Below are positions 5,329-48,800 of a stretch of 49,012 nt of DNA, piece after piece; position 1 is the first letter of the stretch; each line of letters starts with the position of its first letter. Position numbers and translations under genes: made by a program. The notes beneath the pieces were generated by a model. It saw nothing but the letters and a program-made list of their open reading frames with translations, was not told the origin of the DNA and did no database searches. This DNA comes from Cochliopodium minus (taxonomy: Eukaryota; Discosea; Himatismenida; Cochliopodiidae). Location: positions 80,958-129,969 of the forward strand of contig JAMYWO010000084.1 in assembly GCA_024220525.1 (NCBI GenBank), written 5' to 3'.

Positions 5329-8300
5329 TCATTTTTTCTTCAAAATCTCAATCTTCCCTATCAGATCATTAATCTGATTTTTGTATAAGGATTTCACTTC
5401 CTCCAAATCGTTTTTAAGTTCCCAAGTTTGCTCCTCCTTTTCTCCCAACATAATGAGAGCAGTTTCGTGTCTCTTTTTGAGTTCCTCAAGTTCTTTGGTG
5501 CCTACAAAAAAAAAAATAAAAAATAAAAAAATAATAAAAAAAATAAAAAAAATAAAAAAAATAAAAAAATGAAAAAAGAAAAGAAAAAATGAAAAAAAAA
5601 AAAAAATAAAAAAAGAAAAGAAAAAATAAACTAAAAATAAATAAAAAGAATTGATACAATTTTTGTTTTTGTCTAGTCTTTGTTGATAATCATTGTTGAG
5701 ATCTGTCATTTTAGAAATTTCGTTTTCGAGTTGCTCCAACTTCTTTTCGAGGAGAGAAATTTCGTTTTTGAGGGATTCTGTCTCGAAATTAGTAGGAGCG
5801 TAAACTAAACTCGAGTTGTGTATTGACTTGTTCATTGATTTATTTGAACTGTTATTACCTAAAATTCAAAAAATTTTTAACAAAATAAATTTAAAATAAA
5901 AAATAAAAAATTAAAAAAAAACTTTATAAAACAAAAAAAATTTTAAAATAATAACAATTTTTATTAATTGGAAATAAATAAAAAAATAAAAATTTTTCCA
6001 AAAAAAAAAAGTAATAAAAAAAATAAAGTAAAAATAAATAATTACCAATAACCGATTTATTGTTGTTGTCAATGGAAATGTCATGATTGCTTACGATAGG
6101 ACTTGAATTATTAAAATTATTGTTATTGTTAAGATTGTTGTTCTTCAAAGAAGAAATGGTGTTGGACAACTTTTCGTTTTGAGTGGTGAGAAGATTGATT
6201 TGGGAATTAAGCTTCTTCATTTGCTTTTCATTTTCAAGAAGGGAGGTGTTGTGTTTGTTCTTTGCGTTGACTAGTTGGTTTTCCGTCTCTTGAAATGTTT
6301 TCTCCTTGAATTCCATTTGGTTTTTGAGGGAGGTGATTTGGAGTTCGAGGGATTGGGTGCTTGATTTTGATTGGGAGAGTTCTTGTTTCACTTTGTTTAA
6401 TTGTGACATTATTTCTTTATTTTTTTGCTTTTTTATAAAAAAAAATATTTAAAAAAGAAATGCAAAAAATAAAAATAAAGATTATAAATTAAACAAAAAA
6501 AATACTAAAAATCAAAACAAAAAAATTAAGAATAAAAAATTTAAATTCGAAAAATGTTAATAAAAATAAAATAAGAAATAATAAATAAATTAAAATGAAA
6601 TTAATAATATTTAAAAATAAAAATAAAGATTCGAAAATGTTAATAAAAAATAAAAAACAAAGATTATTTGGAAATTTTATTAAAAAATAATAATAATAAA
6701 ATGTATATAAAATATGTAAAATAAAAAATAAACAATTAAAAATGTTAATAAAAATGATAAATCAAAAATAAAAATAAACAATTAAAAAAAATTCATAATA
6801 ATAAAAAAATTAATAAATAATATTATTTCGAATAAAAAAAATGTGGGCAGAAAAGCAAGTGAAATGGCTCCTACAAAAGGGTAGCAGAATTGATAAAGCA
6901 AGAATCACAAGCCTTCAAGTAGATCAAGCGGGAACCTTTTATTCTTTCAGACCGGACAAGAAGCTTAATACATACATGACTCTCCAAGAGTTCCAAGCTT
7001 TTGCCGGTTACAGAATGGGAATCCCTCTCTACAAGAAGGACTCTCTTTGTAAGAAGTGTAAAGAGAGAGTAGATGTTTTTGGAGCCCATACCTCTACCTG
7101 CAAATTTGGGAAGGAAGTTATAAATAGACATGACAAAGTCAGGGACACCCTTGGAGAAATTGGCCAGCAAATGGGATTGGGAGTAAAGAAGGAAGCAAAG
7201 TTGCCTTATAGCAAAGACAACAAAAGACCTGGGGATGTCCAATTCAATGGGCTGAAACCTGGTAAAACCATTAACATTGATGTCACACTTAAATGTCCAA
7301 TTTCAACCTCTAATATTGACAATGCTATCGATGGTAGCCTCTTAAAGAATGCAGAGGAAAAAAAGATTGAGAAATACAAAAACAAGAAGAAGCAAGCAAC
7401 ATTCCTTGANTCCATTTTTAGAAAAGAAGAAATTTTGTTTTCATGAGAAAACTGCATTTGTTGGATTTGTTGCAAGAGAGGAGCAGTGGTGTTCAAACTG
7501 TTGGAAGAAACGTTATCGTTTTGATGTTCCAACTCCAAAACTTTTTTTCTGAGTGTTGTTATTTGTTGATTTAATTGTTCCTCCTATTAAAATAAAAAAT
7601 AAAAATAAAAAATAATAAATAATAAATAATAAAAAATAAAAAAAAAATAATAATAAATAAAAAAATATAAAATATAAAATATAAAAATTAAATTTTAAAA
7701 ATAAAATAAATAAAAAAATTAGAAAATTATAATAAATATATATTGAAAAAAAAATAACAAATAAACAAATAAACAAATAATAAATAATATATATTGAAAA
7801 AAAAATAAAAAATAAAAAATAAAAAAATATTTTTTTGCCTTGTTGATGTAGGATTGTTGTTCGCGTGAGAGGGTCCCACGGAGGGAATTGATGGTATAAT
7901 TGAAGTTTTCTTTCTCTTCTAAAAATTCTCTTTTTAAATTCTCTATCTCTGTTGTTTGCTCCTTTTAAAAAAAAAAAAGATTAAATTAAAAATAAATAAA
8001 TTAAAAGAAATAAAGTAAATAAAGTTTTAATAAAAAATAAAAAATAAAAATTAAAAAATAAATTTAAAATAAATATTAAGATTAATAAGAAATAATTAAA
8101 AATTAAAAAATAAAAAATAAAAAATAAAAATAAAAAAATAAGAAAATGAGAATAAATATTTCCAAAAAATTTTTTTACTTTTTTCATGTTCTCAATCAAA
8201 TCTGTCTCCTTCTGAGAATAAGTAACAACGCTCCTCTCAAGCTTTCCATTCAACTCCTTGACCTCATTCCTCAGCCTCTCGATCTCCGAGCCCCTTTCGT

Positions 8301-14334: not shown

Positions 14335-14520
14335 TTAAAAAAAATAAAAAAATAAAAAAAATAAAATAAAAAATAAAAAATAAAAAACAAAAAACAAAAA
14401 AAAAACATTTGAAATTTGAAACAAAAAATTTGAAATAAAAAATAAAAAATAAAAAATAAAAAATAAAAAATAAAAAATTTGAAATAAAAAATTTGAAATA
14501 AAAAATAAAAAGAAAAGAAG
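14335..14520. repeat. Low-complexity tract (AAAAAT)n with TTTGAAATAAAAAA units
   Basis: Built of AAAAAT hexamers plus copies of TTTGAAATAAAAAA (for example 14459-14505). The same mixed unit ends the window at about 48960-49012. It separates two genes each missing a half: the DOCK 3' half and the M24 5' half. Confidence 0.85.
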
Positions 14521-14529
14521 GGGGATTAC

Positions 14530-17500
14530 AGTTAAAGGATCAATGACTTTGATACGAAGATCACCAAAGTTGTTTAAGACGAGAGCACGTTTGGTGGAAG
14601 AAAAAGATTCAAGAGCGAGAACATCAGTAGAAATGAAATTGAGACAAAGAGCCAAGTAATCTTTGGAAAGAGTCATTTCTTTGGGATTATTGGGAGAACA
14701 GTAAGAAGGAAAATAATTTCCTAATTGAAGAAATTGACCAATAGTATCAAATTGAAACATCAACAATGCCCACCAGGTACTGTCATAGATAGGAGATTGA
14801 ATGACAGACAATAAGAGATGAAGAAGAGAAGATAAAAAAGGAAGATGAGAACGAAGGGGAAGAAGAGAATACTGAATGTAGGTGTTTATGTTTTCATATC
14901 CTACCAAAAACAACATTCCCAACAATATCGTCACTATCAACTCTTTCTTTTGAGGAGAGGTGGTGGGAAGAGAAAAAGAAGAGGAAAGGTAAGGAAGAAG
15001 AGAAAGAATAGAGGTAGGAATGTTATAGTTTTTAGTTTGAAAAGAATGGAGGATGTCAGTAATCAAATTTAAAATTAAATCTACTTGGTTTTCTTCTCCT
15101 TTTTCAAAATACTTTTGAAAATTTTCAACAAGAGTAGTGATAAAAAGTTGACGAGAACCTTCAGAATCTAAAAGAATAGAAGAAAGAAGAGTATCCATCA
15201 ACTTTAATTTATCAGTGACGAGAACATGAGACTTGGTAGAAGTATCATGAAAAGGAAGAGAATTTAAGAGTTGACAAGTGATTTGAGTGAGTTTATCAAT
15301 ACCAAATATAATTTCCAATTGTTCAAACCATAAAGGAAATATTTTAAAGATCGTACCTTGTATAGCCAATAAATTGTTGGGATCATCTTTGGAAAGAAGA
15401 GAATTGAGAGAAAGAAAAAAGAGAGAAAGACCTTCTTGTAAATCTTGTTTATTGTTGCCACTACTGCTTTCTTCAAATAATTTTTTAGAACGAGACATGA
15501 ATTTAAAGATGTAATTGAGAGATTTTAAAGAAGCAAGAACATTTTTAGTACCACTCCCTTCTTTCAAACAATTTACAAGACATTTACCAAGAATGATATG
15601 TGCATTTTTATTTTTGTATTGAGTATTGATGTAGTTGTCTAAAAGAGGTTCAAATTTGGTAAACTTGCTACTTCTTGAATCTGTCAATAATCCTACTATT
15701 TTGGTAAGTGCTTCAAACACCATTTCAGAGAGGTCTTCTTGTGCTTCCAAGATTTGAAATAAAGAGTTGAAAGTTTCTTCTAAAAACTTTATTATTTCAA
15801 ATGCGTCTACATAGGTGAATCTACTCAGTATTTCTTTCACTCTGTTTGGATATTCTTTCCAATGCAACAGTTGAAGCATAGAGATATTTTGCGTGAGACC
15901 AGTAGAACAAAGTTTTATGTTTATTTGAATCTTTTCTTCTTTTTTAATTTGAATTTTGGAAGAAGGATTCATCATGCTTGCTTTCGTCGCATTTTTGGTA
16001 GGCTTGAAAAGATCAACAAGGTGTTTCCCATCATTCAGAACGGTCCCATCCGTTTTGGTTAGTTTTAAAAAAGCGTGTGCATATTCTGCCGTTTTACCAC
16101 TTTTACATTCAAGAATGGTGAGGTACAAATACATTTTCGAACATTGTTTTGCATCAATGTTTATCCTTATTCTTTCTCCCCATTTTGGATTGTTTCCTAC
16201 TTTGTGAGTCACCCATGATACGTATTCTGCTTTTTTTGATTTGTTCTTATCTACATAATGCGTGATGCAATTATCCACCACGGTTCCATCCTCCAACAAA
16301 ACTTGCATATGTATCTCCAATGATTTCTCACTGCTCAATTGTGCACTATTCAACTCTACAAACAACTCATTTCTTGTTTCTCCTGGTATCATATTCTCTG
16401 GAAATCCCCATCTCAATGTTTCTGGATAATTTTTTATTGTATTCCAGATCTCTTCATTCTTCAATTCTGAATAATATCCCTTTATTATAGATGTTGAAAC
16501 ATGAACTCCTTTATTAGCAGTTTCAAAAAAAAAAAAAGTTTAGAACTTGTGAAATAGAAAAGATCATCAATAAAATATATTTTTTTTTACCTTGAGATAG
16601 AGGAACCTTTTGAATTTCAGTTCTATTTTCAATGATGGCTTTGTGTATATCAAAAAAGGAGGACATATTCTTATCAGAGAAGCAATAAAGATCCATCACA
16701 GCATCCTTTGGTTTGTCTTGCAATAAATCTTTTGTTAATTTCAACACTGCACCTGCAAAGGGTCTTCTGAAAGGAGTTTTGGAAGGTTTTCCTTTTTCCA
16801 AATTCATTTTTCCTTTTCTAATAATATTACAAACAAGGTAAAGATCAGAATTTCCAATTTCCTGTTCGGAGAGATCCAAGAAGAGGGTGTACATATTATT
16901 GATATATTCATGATCATCTGGCATTCCTGATTGATTCAATTGAACAACGAAATTCTCACTCAAAAAACCATTATTCTGTCCATTTGTGTTATTGTAAATT
17001 GAAAACACTAATTCCATTGGTTCTCCCACTTTTACAATTGCCGTTTTCATCAATAAAAGGATATTCGTTCTTTCTATCACTTGTTTCTTGACTTCCATTT
17101 CCATTTCAGATTTAGAATTGGAAATTGTTTTCGAAGCTAATTTTTTGGGTCTCAATGATGTTCCATTTTCATTTCCAGACATTTTTTTATGTTCGAAATA
17201 AAGATCAAAAATTCTTGTATTTTTGCTTGTCATCACTTTAATCACAAAAAATGATTAAATATGAAATCAATGATTAATCTTTGAACATAATACCTCCTTG
17301 TTCATTTCTTACAAGTGTATCCAATTTCAATGCCCTTCTCCCTTGTTCAATCTTTTCAATAACTTTGGTTTTTAATAAATTTCTAACTTCCTGAGAAAGA
17401 TTTGTATCAATTATTCTAATAGGAAATGAGATCAAAAATATTTGTATACTTATAATAAATTAATACCTATTATAATATCCTTCTTGTAAAGTTGATATTC

Positions 17501-25438: not shown

Positions 25439-25867
25439 AAAATTCTTAAAGATCAAATCATTAAAAATATTATTGATTCCTTTAATAAAATTAATTGGAG
25501 ATTTCTTTGATCCATTTTTGAACAAAATATTTTTCAATATAAATTCTTTTTTTTTTTCATTCATTGAAATATATGAGTCAGATTTAGATTGGATCATATT
25601 AAAATTTTTTTTTAATAACACTAATTCCCATTTTTTTTGCTTTCCGATATACTAATAATTAGAGATAGCAATTGAATATTAAAAAATAAAATAATTTACA
25701 CTTAAAATTTTGTTTATTATTGTTTGATGTTAAAATATATTATTTTATTTTGTTAAGCAAGACTGTTTGAATACATTAAAAAATGGATCTGAGAATAAGA
25801 ATCAAAAATTAAAAAAAGAAATAATAATAAAAAAAAAAAAAAAATCAAATTTAAAAATTCAGAAAAT
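25439..25867. other. Intergenic spacer
   Basis: About 430 AT-rich bases: the 3' flank of the dehydrogenase and the upstream region of the beta-trefoil gene. No frame, repeat or motif that I would defend. Confidence 0.5.
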
Positions 25868-26602
25868 ATGTCTTACCTCGCACACGGATTAAAAGTACAA
25901 TTCAGATCTCATCATGGAAATTACCTCAGAGCAGATAATAATGGAACTGTAAATCTTGCTCCTCACGCAAAGGAATGGGAACAATGGACTGTTGAATTTG
26001 TAGGAAACAAGGTACAACTCAGATCTCATCATGGAAATTACCTCAGAGCAGATCCAAACACATCTGTGAATCTTGCACAACAACCAAAGGAATGGGAACA
26101 ATGGACTGTTGAATATGTAGGAAATAAAGTACAACTCAAATCTCATCACAATACCTTCCTTAGAGCTGATACCAATGGAACTGTAAATCTTGCTCCACAT
26201 GCAAAGGAATGGGAACAATATACTGTTGAAGTTGTTGGAAATTATTTGAGCCATCATCGTCAAGTCTCCTTCAAATCCCATCACGGAAACTTCCTTAGAG
26301 CAGATAACAATGGAACTGTTAATCTTGCTCCACATTCAAAGGAATGGGAAAGTTGGAAAGTTGAACATGTAGGAAACAAGGTACAATTCAAATCTCATCA
26401 TGGAAATTACCTTAGAGCAGATAACAACGGAACTGTAAATCTTGCTCCACATGCAAAGGAATGGGAACAATGGACTGTAGAATATGTAGGAAATAAAGTT
26501 CAATTCAGATCTCATCATGGAAATTACCTTAGAGCAGATAACAACGGAACTGTAAATCTTGCTCCACATGCAAAGGAATGGGAACAATGGACCATCAATT
26601 AA
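25868..26602 (+). CDS. Fascin/hisactophilin-like double beta-trefoil protein, six near-identical repeats
   Basis: A single exon of 244 residues without a signal peptide. After MSYLAHGL come six units of about 39 residues starting at residues 9, 48, 87, 132, 171 and 210. The consensus is KVQFRSHHGNYLRADNNGTV followed by NLAPHAKEWEQWTVEYVGN. Three such units make one beta-trefoil, so the protein should fold as two trefoils, with a YLSHHR linker at residues 126-131. The repeat (KSHHG.YL.A) resembles hisactophilin and fascin, cytosolic actin binders; His pairs in every repeat suggest pH sensitivity as in hisactophilin. Units 1, 5 and 6 are almost identical in DNA. The function by family is actin or membrane binding, not proven. 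Confidence 0.8.
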   Translation: MSYLAHGLKVQFRSHHGNYLRADNNGTVNLAPHAKEWEQWTVEFVGNKVQLRSHHGNYLRADPNTSVNLAQQPKEWEQWTVEYVGNKVQLKSHHNTFLRADTNGTVNLAPHAKEWEQYTVEVVGNYLSHHRQVSFKSHHGNFLRADNNGTVNLAPHSKEWESWKVEHVGNKVQFKSHHGNYLRADNNGTVNLAPHAKEWEQWTVEYVGNKVQFRSHHGNYLRADNNGTVNLAPHAKEWEQWTIN

Positions 26603-36109: not shown

Positions 36110-38614
36110 ATGAAGCTCAATAACCAAATCTTTCTTTTCAATCTGATCAATTTTGCTGATCTCAAGTCCATTATAAATTTATCTCATGTATCCAAAGAAT
36201 TATTCATTGCGTAAGATTTTTTTCATCAATTCAAAACTAATAGATTTACTCTTGAATAAAAGATTGAATAAGGATAAGATTTGGAAGAAATTATGCAACA
36301 AAAAAGGGGTTTTCTTTTTCTCAGAAGATAATAATAATAAAATGCAACCTTTATGGTGTTCCCCCTGCAATTGGAAAGATGTAAATCTATTTATAATCAA
36401 GATTCACAAATTTTTACCCAAATTTTTTTTTTTAAAAGTCCTTCATTTACAACTATGGAATTAAATGTAAAGATGCTTTTTCAATAAATAAATTAATATT
36501 AATATATTTTGCCTCAATCCAATTGATATAGTTCTCCCAAAAAAAGAAGATTTCAATTTGAATAATTTGGGTATGATTTTCCTCAAATAAAACAAAATTT
36601 TAATAAATAATCTTCAAAAGAACAAAATGTGCAATTATTTGCAGATCCAAAATTTGAATCCAATCCAGAGCATTTGTGGAGATTATCATATATTGTCCAA
36701 CAAATTAAGGTAATAAGAAATATTGAATAAATAATAAAATAAATTAATAAAATAATAATAAAATAATAATAAAATAATAATTAAACAAATTAAACAAAAA
36801 ATACGAACAAAATTTTTGAATAAAATACGAACAAAATTTTTGATTTTCAAAATTTTATTGTAAAGGATGCAGACGTGAACAATATGGAAAAAGTTTGCAA
36901 AAATCTTCATGACAAAGCGGCAAATTTTATAGAAACATATTGCGAGAAAATAGTGAAGCAAATGGGGAAAGTGAAAATTGATAATTCTGGCATCATCGAA
37001 AAATTGATTCAACAATACCTTCGTTACGCAAAGATTATTGAATGTATCTATTGTCATTTGCGTTTTTGGTAAAAAAAATTAAATCGAACAAAAAAATTAT
37101 TTTTAACATTTCTTTTTTATATTTAAAAAAAAATTTATATTTTTTAATTATTTTTTGGAATATAATTATTTTTTAAATTTTATGTTTTATTTTTTATCAT
37201 AATAATAATTATTTCTTTTTGATTTGTTTGTTTTTGTCAAAAAACTTTTTTTACTTTTATAGGGTGGGTTGGAAAATGCCATTGATGGAAGAAGCAAAAA
37301 ACATTTTAAAAGAAAATTACTTTCAAGAAACAGGTTTAGAGTTGACTTATGAACTCACTCTCCACCTCGACAAAATCCCCAGAAACAGAGAAATCTTCAT
37401 GATCGCTTCTGACAAAAGGTAAATTTCATTTTGTTATAAATCAAACCAAATCTTTTTTCAATTTAATTTGTTTTTTTAATTTTTATTTTTTTATTTTTTA
37501 ATATTATATTTTTACTTTTATTTTTGAAATTCTTTTAATTTAATCAAATTTTTTAATTAATTCCCTTCTATTTAATTCTTAAAGTTTAATTTTTTTTTAT
37601 AAAATTTGATATTTTTAATCTAATTTTAAATTTTCAATTTTTTAGTTTTAATTTTATTCAATTTAATATAATATTTATTTGAAAAAATGAACAAATTTTT
37701 TTTTTTTTTCAAGAAAATTTATCATGAAGTACTATGAGTTGGAATGTGCAGAGACATTGAAGAGTATTGTGGATTTGTTCCCAAAGAACACTCCTCACTT
37801 TCAAACGGACATGAACACCATTTACTTGGACACTATTCGTACTTGGATGGAATTTCATTCTTCTAATCCCTCCCTTGACCATTCTTCTTTTGACAAAAAA
37901 TTTCTCACCACCATGGAACACAAAACCGCCATCAAAGTCTTAGTTGCTGGTAAAAAAAATAATAAATTAAAACTCTTATAATAAAAATAAAATAAAAAAT
38001 GAGATAATAAAATAAAATATAAAAATAAAATAAAATTAAAATAAAAATACAATAAAATATAAAAATAATAGAATATAAAATATGAAAAGATTAAAAATAA
38101 TAAACTCGTTTTTTTTTTGCAGCATACACATGGAACATTGTTGACTTGGTTGAACTTGTTTGCAATGAAATTTCAATCAATTCAAATCTTTATGCGTAAA
38201 ACCATTTTCCTTTTAATAAAGATTTATTTAGATTTTTTTGTTTAATTATTTACACTTTTTTTTGTCAGAGAATGTCCTGAGGACATTAAAACTCTTTTCA
38301 ATATTACAGACATGAAAGAGATAGAAAAAGAGAGGGAGAAAAGAAGAGAAATAGAGGATAGTTGGAATTGCAGCTCTTGTACTTTTTACAATAATGGTCT
38401 CGCAACCACTTGTTCCATTTGTGAGGTTCCTCGTAACTCTGATTCTTCAGGCTCTGGTAACTCTGCTTCTCAATCTGCTTCCAATACCTATCAACAAGAA
38501 CAAGTAAAACAACAACAAATCCCCACCGAAAATTGGAGTTGCTCTACTTGCACTTTTTATAATGAAGCAAGCAATCCCCTGTGTGAAATGTGCGGAGAAA
38601 AATATACGAATTGA
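36110..38614 (+). CDS. F-box / cullin-N-like / Skp1 / double RanBP2-NZF zinc-finger fusion protein
   Basis: Ten exons (36110-36210, 36263-36380, 36439-36466, 36532-36570, 36645-36709, 36866-37068, 37263-37418, 37714-37949, 38123-38195, 38269-38614) all join by GT-AG in phase into 454 residues. Residues 1-48 are an F-box: FLFNLINFADLKSIINLSHV, SKELFIALNKDKIWKKLC. Residues about 105-235 match a cullin N-terminal repeat: FIETYCEKIVKQMG, IIEKLIQQYLRYAKIIECIY, CHLRFWV. Residues about 238-374 are Skp1-like: TIYLDTIRTWMEFH, KVLVAAYTWNIVDLVELVC, CPEDIKTLFNITD, ending REIEDSW. Two zinc fingers follow, WNCSSCTFYNNGLATTCSIC and WSCSTCTFYNEASNPLCEMC, with the Thr-Phe pair that contacts ubiquitin in NZF domains. 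Inferred role: one-chain substrate adaptor related to SCF, without a RING-binding part. Confidence 0.85.
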
Positions 38615-46727: not shown

Positions 46728-48800
46728 TTAAAGAGAAGAAATTAATTCTTGCATTTGATCAAATCTGGTTTGCATTAATTTGAGCAAAGGAGCAAATTGC
46801 TCTGTGCAAACTTTAGGCCACAAATCTAAACTCTTTTTACAAAGATGGAGTTGTTCTTTTATCATTTTGGCAAGTCCATCAACATAAATTTTGTGTGAAG
46901 GATTTTGTTCCAAATAAGAAGAAATTAAAAATGCATTTTTATACTTTACAACACCACCATTTACGGCAGCGTCCAACACACCCTGAACAGTTTGGATAAA
47001 AGGTTGAGAGTCGGTAGGTCTACCATCTTCAGAGTAAGTATCTATTCTTTCTTGAACTTGGAGATTCTTTTCTTGCATTTGTTCCAAAGCAAACTCGATA
47101 GGACTAAGATCCACTTCACTCTTTTCTATTATTTCCGTATTTGATTTTTCAGAAGGAAGTTTTTCACTCGTAACATAAAAAATCTTGTTGATCCAAATGT
47201 CCAATACCTCCTCTCCTGTTTTTGATTTTTTTACAGGCTTACTGTAAACGAAAACATCCAAATCAAAGCATGTTTGAAATTTCAAGACTTCAGAGGGCCA
47301 TTTTTTGTCCAGTTTTCTTTCTTCTTTTTTCATTTCCTCTCTTGAAGATGGTTGCACCTGGAATATTTGAAAATACATTTCGTCAGAATCAGTGATGGAA
47401 GAATCTGGTGGATTTGTATATGAAAGAAACTGTGCAGAGGGATATTTCTTTTCGAATGGTTCTCTGAATTCGTCCAATCTTTGTAATGGTTTTGCTTTGA
47501 ATATAAATTCTTTATTTGCCAACTTTCCAAATCCTTTTCCATAATACCCTACTCTATAATACATTGGAAAAAATGCTAATCTGCTCTGTGTCATTGATCT
47601 GATCAAAAAAGATTGATTAACAAATTTATATAATTTATTATATTGAAATATAAAATTATTTATAATTTAAAATAAAAATTGATAATTTTTATATATATAT
47701 TATAATACCTATAAAATTTGGACATCTTTTTGAGTACTTCAGCTCTGGCGATGTAATTGAAAGAATAGGACTCGTGTTTGTCACGTAAAATTTGGAGGAG
47801 TTCGATACTTTTTTCAAAGTATTTTCCTTCAGCAAAAAGGTCAATGGCTTCATTCATCAAATCACATTTTCTGTCATAGTCATTCGTCCAAGACAAAAGA
47901 TTGGAAACTCTCAAATAACAATTTGCTGCTTCCACAAACATTTCCTCTTTTTTGTGTTGTTCTGCAAGAAAAAAAGCCAGTTTCTCAAATGTCTCTATGT
48001 TCCCTTTTTTACTCAAACAATAATTCATTATTCCCAACACTGCATTTGCTCTGTCCACATTGTATGTAGGTGTTGGTGCCAATGTCCTTTTTTTAAAAAA
48101 AAATTTAATTTAATTTGATAAAACTAAAAAGTAAATTAAAATGAAATAACAGAAAAATAGAGTATAAAAAAAAAAGAATAAAAATAATTAATAGAAACAT
48201 CAAGAAACAAAACAAAACAATTAAATTAAATAAATAAAATAAAATCTATAATTAAAAGAAATAAAACAAAATAATTAAAAGAAACAAAACAAAATATTAA
48301 AATAAACAAAATAAAATAATTAAAAGAAACTAAAGAAAATAATTAAAATAGACAAAACAAAATAATAATTAAAAGAAACAAAATAAAATAAGATTAAAAT
48401 AACAGAAAAGAAAGAAAGAAATTGTAATGTACTTGAGGGAGAGGTGAAAAGAGAGATAATCAGAGACGAAAGAAAGGAGATGTTGAGAAACATGCTTGAG
48501 ATCATCAGAAGAAGAAAGTTGAGATTCCAAGTTACGTTGAAAAATAAGAGTAAAATTGGCGAGAAGAGAGTTGGGATGAGAATTTTCGGACATGAAAAGA
48601 TTATCCAGTGCTTTTGCTGTATTTGCTGACCCATTTGATACTCCCCCTGTTCTCTTGTATTCTTGTTTCAAACATGTCACATATAATGACACTCCCAACC
48701 CCTGTATTTCTTTTTGTTCTACAAATATCAAATTGAAAAAGTTTGGTATGAGTGTCTCCATTATTTCTGGTTGTGACTCTGCCAAAAACCCAAACAATTT
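46728..48800 (-). CDS. DOCK-family exchange factor, 3' half (DHR-2 catalytic domain)
   Basis: Three exons: 48800 to about 48433 (LFGFLAESQPEIMETLIPNF), about 48087-47710 and about 47600-46728, in phase. The second and third carry the DHR-2 order: FLAEQHKKEEMFVEAANCYL, AEGKYFEKSIELLQILRD, LKKMSKFYR, then YYRVGYYGKGFGKLANKEFI, where DOCKs have the conserved YYRVGFYG segment, and LSPIEFALEQMQEKN near the end. DHR-2 exchanges GDP on Rac/Cdc42. SH3 and DHR-1 are not upstream: the window ends in an AT tract. The first exon begins in phase 0, as required by the donor that ends the DOCK 5' half at 14530. It ends 54 bases from the convergent RGS-CLU gene. Confidence 0.88.

Follow-up and report, generated by a model that had tools for sequence, protein, structure and literature searches.

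A gene of ten exons, spanning positions 36110 to 38614 on the forward strand of the window (i.e., the whole stretch of 49,012 nucleotides of Cochliopodium minus DNA that was analysed; contig C84, 80958-129969), encodes a single chain of 454 amino acids in which a likely N-terminal F-box, a conserved middle domain, a Skp1-like domain and two NZF zinc fingers follow one another; on a second contig of the same genome, C50, a diverged paralogue repeats this order. The first-pass annotation had placed an F-box, a cullin repeat, a Skp1 domain and two NZF fingers on one chain; the Skp1-like domain, the two fingers and, as the likely identity of the N-terminus, the F-box were recovered here, and their order is repeated in the C50 copy, but the cullin part was not. 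In the interpretation that we favor, with a probability of roughly 0.45, the F-box and the Skp1-like domain would be tethered in cis as a module that, together with ubiquitin-reading NZF fingers, may serve as an adaptor or scaffold largely outside the Cul1-RBX1 ligase.

The gene model was rebuilt by a chain search in which the exon lengths were imposed (101, 118, 28, 39, 65, 203, 156, 236, 73 and 346 nucleotides), while GT or GC donors, AG acceptors and introns of 20-400 nt were allowed. Given these lengths, exactly one chain was obtained, running from the ATG at 36110 to the stop at 38614 and encoding 454 amino acids with one terminal stop. Its exons occupy 36110-36210, 36263-36380, 36439-36466, 36532-36570, 36645-36709, 36866-37068, 37263-37418, 37714-37949, 38123-38195 and 38269-38614, all on the forward strand. 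The nine introns, 52-295 nt in length, are all of the GT-AG type, and the GC fraction is 0.344 in the exons versus 0.125 in the introns. The earlier description of ten phase-matched exons giving one 454-residue chain is thus borne out by a unique solution with a single stop and uniformly GT-AG introns, and at the level of the DNA sequence the gene is real. For the short exons 3 (28 nt) and 4 (39 nt), additional support comes from the paralogue, since the residues that straddle their junction in the window gene (IK|FLPK) are read within a single exon of the C50 copy (LKFCPK). Elsewhere in the window, two pieces of the DOCK family were seen on the reverse strand, one at 14335-17254 with DOCK_N/C2/TPR parts and another at 46728-47666 with DHR-2 lobes; on the forward strand, 25799-26602 encodes a repetitive fascin-like, beta-trefoil protein (PF06268, E 5.2e-24), and the frame at 6817-7446, which contains one ambiguous residue, resembles by eye the C-terminal portion of a protein encoded by a retrotransposon.

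When the window protein was used to search its own genome (44.65 Mb, 598 contigs), one match was retrieved besides itself, on contig C50 (E 9.5e-5), where a gene of ten exons with GT-AG introns and 523 encoded amino acids was found (locus L009, 2837-5771). Its domain order is the same as that of the window gene and its exons are intact. The two proteins are 24% identical over window residues 2-448 (BLASTP, E 6e-25 for a nominal database size of ten million). The reciprocal search with the C50 protein returned only itself and the window gene at E<=1; at this sensitivity, the family would consist of two members in the genome. Five segments were then compared one by one between the two proteins, with 2000 shuffles each, and no shuffle reached the observed score in any of them: the F-box with its extension scored 113 (null maximum 62), the F-box alone 89 (59), the middle segment 133 (67), the Skp1-like segment 87 (64, null mean 34.5) and the NZF segment 116 (57). 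The smallest excess over its own null was that of the Skp1-like segment. The intron positions also agree in part, as introns 1, 2 and 5 of the window gene (three of its nine) coincide with C50 introns 1, 2 and 3 in both aligned residue and phase; intron 6 is displaced by a single base, intron 9 by two, and intron 8, which lies beside an alignment gap, by about four, while introns 3, 4 and 7 are without a C50 counterpart.

These comparisons bear directly on a trivial explanation of the architecture, namely that two adjacent genes, one for an F-box protein and the other for a Skp1-NZF protein, were falsely joined when the exons were read. The model was indeed read from DNA alone, and exon 7 of the window gene contains in-frame Met codons at which a second gene could be imagined to start. 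However, the C50 exon that matches the start of window exon 7 is devoid of Met, the middle domain passes into the Skp1-like domain inside exon 7, and the C50 copy repeats the order with intact exons. Because the order is the same, the segments outscore their shuffles and the introns match, a wrong joining of two genes is considered very unlikely, and the falsely joined pair was rejected on the strength of the paralogue and its shared introns.

The F-box was assigned to positions 36140 to 36299 (forward strand; residues 11-46), where it is split by intron 1 (36211-36262). Its Pfam scores all fell under the cut-off: PF12937 (F-box-like) matched at E 0.0026 in the whole window protein and 0.0014 in residues 1-95, and PF00646 (F-box) at 0.005 and 0.069, respectively. 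The N-terminus of the C50 protein matched PF12937 at E 0.079, again under the cut-off, and the whole C50 protein yielded no Pfam F-box match at E<=10. A profile built from the two N-termini matched nine PDB chains (best E 0.016); five of these are F-box proteins by name, and the other four were 'Expressed sequence C85627', ranked second and sharing its entry with an F-box protein, plus three chains of PARP4. The N-terminus is therefore likely, on sequence grounds, to be an F-box. It is followed at 36300 to 36570 (forward strand; residues 47-95) by an extension that is conserved in the C50 copy and includes the motif WK..(Y/F)I.

A search of the genome with residues 1-208 retrieved three further places, C68 (E 2.3e-4), C148 (0.085) and C9 (0.29), all of which matched within the F-box part of the query; likewise, all four alignments obtained by tblastn of both paralogues against these loci were restricted to that part. 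As the similarity is confined to this part, the three were rejected as further members of the family. The C68 gene, whose match also speaks for the F-box assignment, is among the PF12937 matches of the genome, 150 of which were scored, while C148 and C9 lie outside these 150 and are F-box-like by eye only. At the C68 locus (L042, 773-2950), the F-box exon, which is the best match to the window F-box in the genome apart from itself and C50, is followed by exons that by eye encode a JmjC-like protein; the C9 locus reads on, by eye, into leucine-rich repeats.

The Skp1-like domain extends over positions 37390 to 38359 (forward strand; residues about 228-370) and comprises a BTB part and a C-terminal, F-box-binding extension. 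The window protein matched Skp1 in the PDB at E 1.3e-5 over residues 264-371, and a profile of four Skp1 proteins of the same genome plus human SKP1 matched residues 232-367, also at E 1.3e-5 (Z 20000). In hhalign, the window segment reached a probability of 95.5% with a score of 54.5 over 143 columns, the best of 100 shuffles being 22.4. It scored only 8.8 bits with PF01466 against a cut-off of 22.3, and by the combined comparisons the window copy is a divergent, full-length Skp1-like domain as judged from sequence. The C50 domain is weaker: its hhalign match, confined to 64 columns towards the C-terminus, has a probability of 16% and a score of 26.2 (best shuffle 19.6), and neither hmmsearch at E<=10 nor Pfam matched it. 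A profile of the two copies retrieved Skp1 from the PDB at E 1.1e-3, which is weaker than the 1.3e-5 of the window protein alone; nonetheless, 25 of its 26 PDB matches were Skp1 or SKP1-like chains. The preferred reading is opposed by the fact that the F-box scores under the Pfam cut-off in both copies and that the C50 Skp1-like domain is weak when taken alone.

The NYL motif of Skp1 is a contact with Cul1. It reads AANYLDI in human SKP1 and in the C60 and C175 Skp1 genes of this genome, ASNYLDI in C43 and AAYHLEV in C245, and the corresponding stretches of the two fused copies are AAYTWNI and ISYLWDI. Thus, the motif has been replaced in both, but this is only a hint, since the C245 Skp1 also does without NYL; a change of NYL does not prove that cullin binding was lost. 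The conserved residues are also unevenly placed, as 21 of the 32 positions in the Skp1-like domain that are invariant between the two copies fall in its second half and 11 in its first. In PMC5282575, the N-terminal BTB domain of Skp1 is described as interacting with Cullin1, and the C-terminal extension of about 35 residues as folding around the F-box.

The genome at large probably contains a canonical SCF. Six Skp1 matches scored above the cut-off, cullin matches were found on several contigs (that on C207 being nearest to Cullin-1 in the PDB), and an RBX1-type match of 58.8 bits was among the 30 matches to that RING model. The F-box family is very large, as scoring 150 of the 469 candidates already yielded 150 matches at E<=0.01; its members are spread over many contigs (e.g., C11:124180-129978, C28:147656-170721 and C114:73403-87772), in part as local clusters. 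An observation on a different Skp1 gene concerns contig C78, where an open frame with the sequence LPSHLVNKIL and a stretch that is BTB-like by eye (L012, 963-1433) directly precedes a Skp1 exon; it is possibly another extended Skp1 gene, and Pfam returned nothing above the cut-off for it.

With the SCF parts at hand, it is conceivable, though on the unlikely side, that the fused protein is a pre-assembled SCF receptor, in which the F-box and Skp1-like domain would pair in cis and still dock on the CUL1 of the same cell, while the NZF fingers would recognise ubiquitylated substrates, as in chain extension. The CUL1-like gene and the RBX1-type match agree with such a receptor, as does the BTB part, which has been kept in the window Skp1-like domain. 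Against it stand the replacement of NYL in both copies, the Skp1-like segment with the smallest excess over its null (87 versus a mean of 34.5), and the small share of invariant residues, 11 of 32, that lies in its first half. A sequestering decoy is distinctly unlikely; here, the F-box would bind free Skp1 and the Skp1-like domain would bind free F-box proteins in trans, so that SCF activity is lowered. Both halves of the F-box/Skp1 pair are present on the chain, and the genome offers a large F-box pool; however, partner domains carried by one chain would more readily pair with each other.

The C-terminal part of the window protein contains two zinc fingers, the first at 38363 to 38434 (WNCSSCTFYNNGLATTCSIC, residues 372-395) and the second at 38534 to 38599 (WSCSTCTFYNEASNPLCEMC, residues 429-450), both on the forward strand. 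PF00641 matched the whole protein at E 1.8e-11 in two stretches, the second finger alone scored 27.7 bits in the genome search, above the cut-off, and the NZF of RNF31 was matched in the PDB at E 1.4e-4. All four fingers of the two genes fit the signature W-x-C-x(2,4)-C-x3-N-x6-C-x2-C. This signature is given in PMC12383448, where the Thr-Phe pair is stated to be critical for ubiquitin binding; the pair is present in three of the four fingers, i.e., both of the window and finger 2 of C50, while finger 1 of C50 has Ser-Tyr in its place, which counts against the preferred reading. By sequence, the two window fingers are NZF fingers of the ubiquitin-binding type and putative ubiquitin binders. 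In the genome, scoring of 23 candidates gave at least six NZF matches at E<=0.01, spread over at least four contigs (C150, C174, C84 and C50). With numbers this low, NZF fingers have probably not come to share a chain with F-box and Skp1-like parts simply because they are widespread. The Skp1-NZF piece, searched against the same genome, matched C150, C7 and C50 in its NZF part, and the C60 Skp1 gene at E 0.27.

The middle domain (36570 to 37329, forward strand; residues 96-207) is conserved between the paralogues, with 34% identity, and is probably helical by eye. Its best Pfam matches, PF03387 (E 0.0052, 16 bits against a cut-off of 25) and PF05504 (E 0.018), were rejected as identities, being under the cut-off and taken as chance matches of helical sequence. 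It was this domain that the first-pass annotation had called a cullin repeat, and the motif KLIQQYLRYAKIIECIYCHLRFWV on which it drew is present in the segment as letters. The cullin model PF00888 nonetheless matched neither copy at E<=10, and a profile of the two middle segments gave four PDB matches, all with E values of 0.4 or higher and no cullin among them. With a CUL3-rich profile, the best domains in the two segments scored -1.6 and -2.9 bits in hmmsearch. The hhalign probability was 0.23% with the CUL3-rich set and 0.15-2.03% with a diverse set of 15 sequences and a CUL1-type set of four, and the middle segment scored within the range of the shuffled sequences or at its limit. In contrast, when six N-terminal pieces of true cullins were left out of the profile one at a time, hhalign recovered them at 94-100%, which serves as a control for the method.

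A faint resemblance to cullins was seen in some of the pairwise comparisons. When the two paralogues were aligned with seven cullin pieces, i.e., in 14 comparisons, the window segment matched the C117 (p 0.005) and C207 (p 0.017) cullins of the same genome in the register proposed earlier (QYLR...CHLRFWV), p values that are non-significant after correction for the 14 comparisons. The CUL1-type hhalign of the window segment fell in the same register with a score of 18.52, which was reached by one of 40 shuffles (18.94). For the C50 segment, the sole low p value (0.018, with C207) arose in a different register, and its register-consistent hhalign score of 11.7 was near the null median of 10.4. 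A true cullin repeat between the F-box and Skp1 would place receptor, adaptor and cullin N-terminus on one chain. The two alignments and the hhalign score in the claimed register, together with the conservation of the segment, speak for this, whereas the missing PF00888 and PDB matches, the negative scores with the CUL3-rich profile, the hhalign probabilities far below those of the left-out cullins, the inconsistent behavior of the C50 segment, and the lack of any cullin C-terminus among the matches of either copy make it very unlikely. The cullin identity of residues 96-207 was accordingly rejected, as Pfam, the PDB profile, hmmsearch, the hhalign nulls and the pairwise shuffles were all unsupportive, although a very distant cullin origin is conceivable. 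The broader idea of a three-part SCF put together within one chain is likewise unsupported, because no profile test favors its cullin part. The companion statement that the chain has no RING-binding part agrees with our results, since no cullin C-terminal Pfam model matched either copy at E<=10, nor did any Pfam domain for an RBX1-binding or neddylation region. The lone RING-named match was under the cut-off (E 0.11, 13.1 bits against 30.8) and located in the NZF part of C50.

Relatives in other species were sought in a collection of 5.8 billion proteins, the sources of which include EukProt and the NCBI eukaryotes. The window protein had none at E<=1e-3 among 3961 candidates, and the two-member profile had none at E<=10 among 7339. 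The search relies on shared five-residue words, and the closest CUL3 sequences in the collection, judged from the best 120 of 1983, were at most 73% identical to the CUL3 of this genome over the N-terminus; close relatives of the organism may therefore be absent from the collection. Within those 120, the named CUL3 sequences of highest identity come from amoebozoans (Balamuthia mandrillaris, 71%), while the two with the best scores are from a nematode, at 53% and 49% identity. The same order, for which a search had been proposed, was thus found once more within the genome, in the C50 gene, but in no relative among the 5.8 billion proteins. We know of no described protein that combines F-box, Skp1 and NZF on a single chain. 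The literature searched, including accessible portions of PMC6685633 and PMC4209131, yielded no description of a single-chain F-box/Skp1 or F-box/Skp1/NZF protein.

In the preferred reading of a tethered F-box/Skp1-like module with NZF fingers, the N-terminal F-box would be clamped in cis by the Skp1-like domain or, in a dimer, by that of a second copy. As the SCF parts exist in this genome, competition for Skp1 is plausible, and a protein clamped in cis would presumably be spared the competition for free Skp1 that other members of the very large F-box family would face. Work of the module largely outside the canonical Cul1-RBX1 ligase is probable because NYL is changed in both copies and the searches revealed neither a cullin nor a RING domain in them. 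The two NZF fingers would bind ubiquitin or ubiquitylated cargo, the conserved middle domain may bind a specific partner, and the protein as a whole would serve as an adaptor or scaffold that reads ubiquitin, and not as a ligase. An extended form of this proposal, in which the F-box and Skp1-like domain are locked together, the middle domain sits on the cullin face as an analogue or a far-diverged cullin repeat, and the NZF fingers read ubiquitin, would make the protein a cullin-free SCF offshoot that has kept the receptor-adaptor architecture and dropped the ligase; on the present sequences, we regard this form as unlikely. If the tethered module is real, the two diverged fused genes would be a natural single-chain version of the F-box/Skp1 pair; they would allow one to test directly whether such modules can function without a cullin, and whether tethering offers a way round Skp1 competition where F-box proteins are as numerous as here.

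The protein differs from known systems in the following respects. To our knowledge, F-box proteins and Skp1 are on separate chains in all known SCF complexes, an arrangement by which many F-box proteins share one adaptor. Measured against this cullin-RING scheme of separate chains, the window protein has its likely F-box and its Skp1-like domain on one chain, with no cullin and no RING match above the cut-off. It resembles F-box proteins of the FBXW/FBXO type in its N-terminal F-box-like match and the WK..(Y/F) extension that follows, but has its own Skp1-like domain on the chain, and no WD40, LRR or kelch match was found in it by Pfam at E<=10. The Skp1-like part resembles Skp1 (SKP1/ASK) over the BTB part and the C-terminal extension of the window copy, but is placed behind an F-box and before two NZF fingers, has a changed NYL and scores under the Pfam cut-off. 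The likeness to cullins (PF00888) is a short, register-consistent resemblance of the window segment at QYLR...CHLRFWV, while the window and C50 proteins differ from cullins in that the resemblance is without statistical support and no C-terminal domain was found. The NZF proteins Npl4, TAB2/3, RNF31 and RYBP, which are all among the PDB matches, have the same signature with Thr-Phe; unlike them, the window gene carries two NZF fingers on an F-box/Skp1 chain. Roy1 reportedly forms a non-SCF F-box/Skp1 complex, and we know of no NZF finger in such complexes, whether of Roy1 or of Ctf13-Skp1. The latter, as described in PMC5282575, is in yeast CBF3 an F-box/Skp1 pair outside the canonical ligase, as is proposed here for the fused proteins, but its Skp1 is a separate, shared subunit, unlike that of the window gene.
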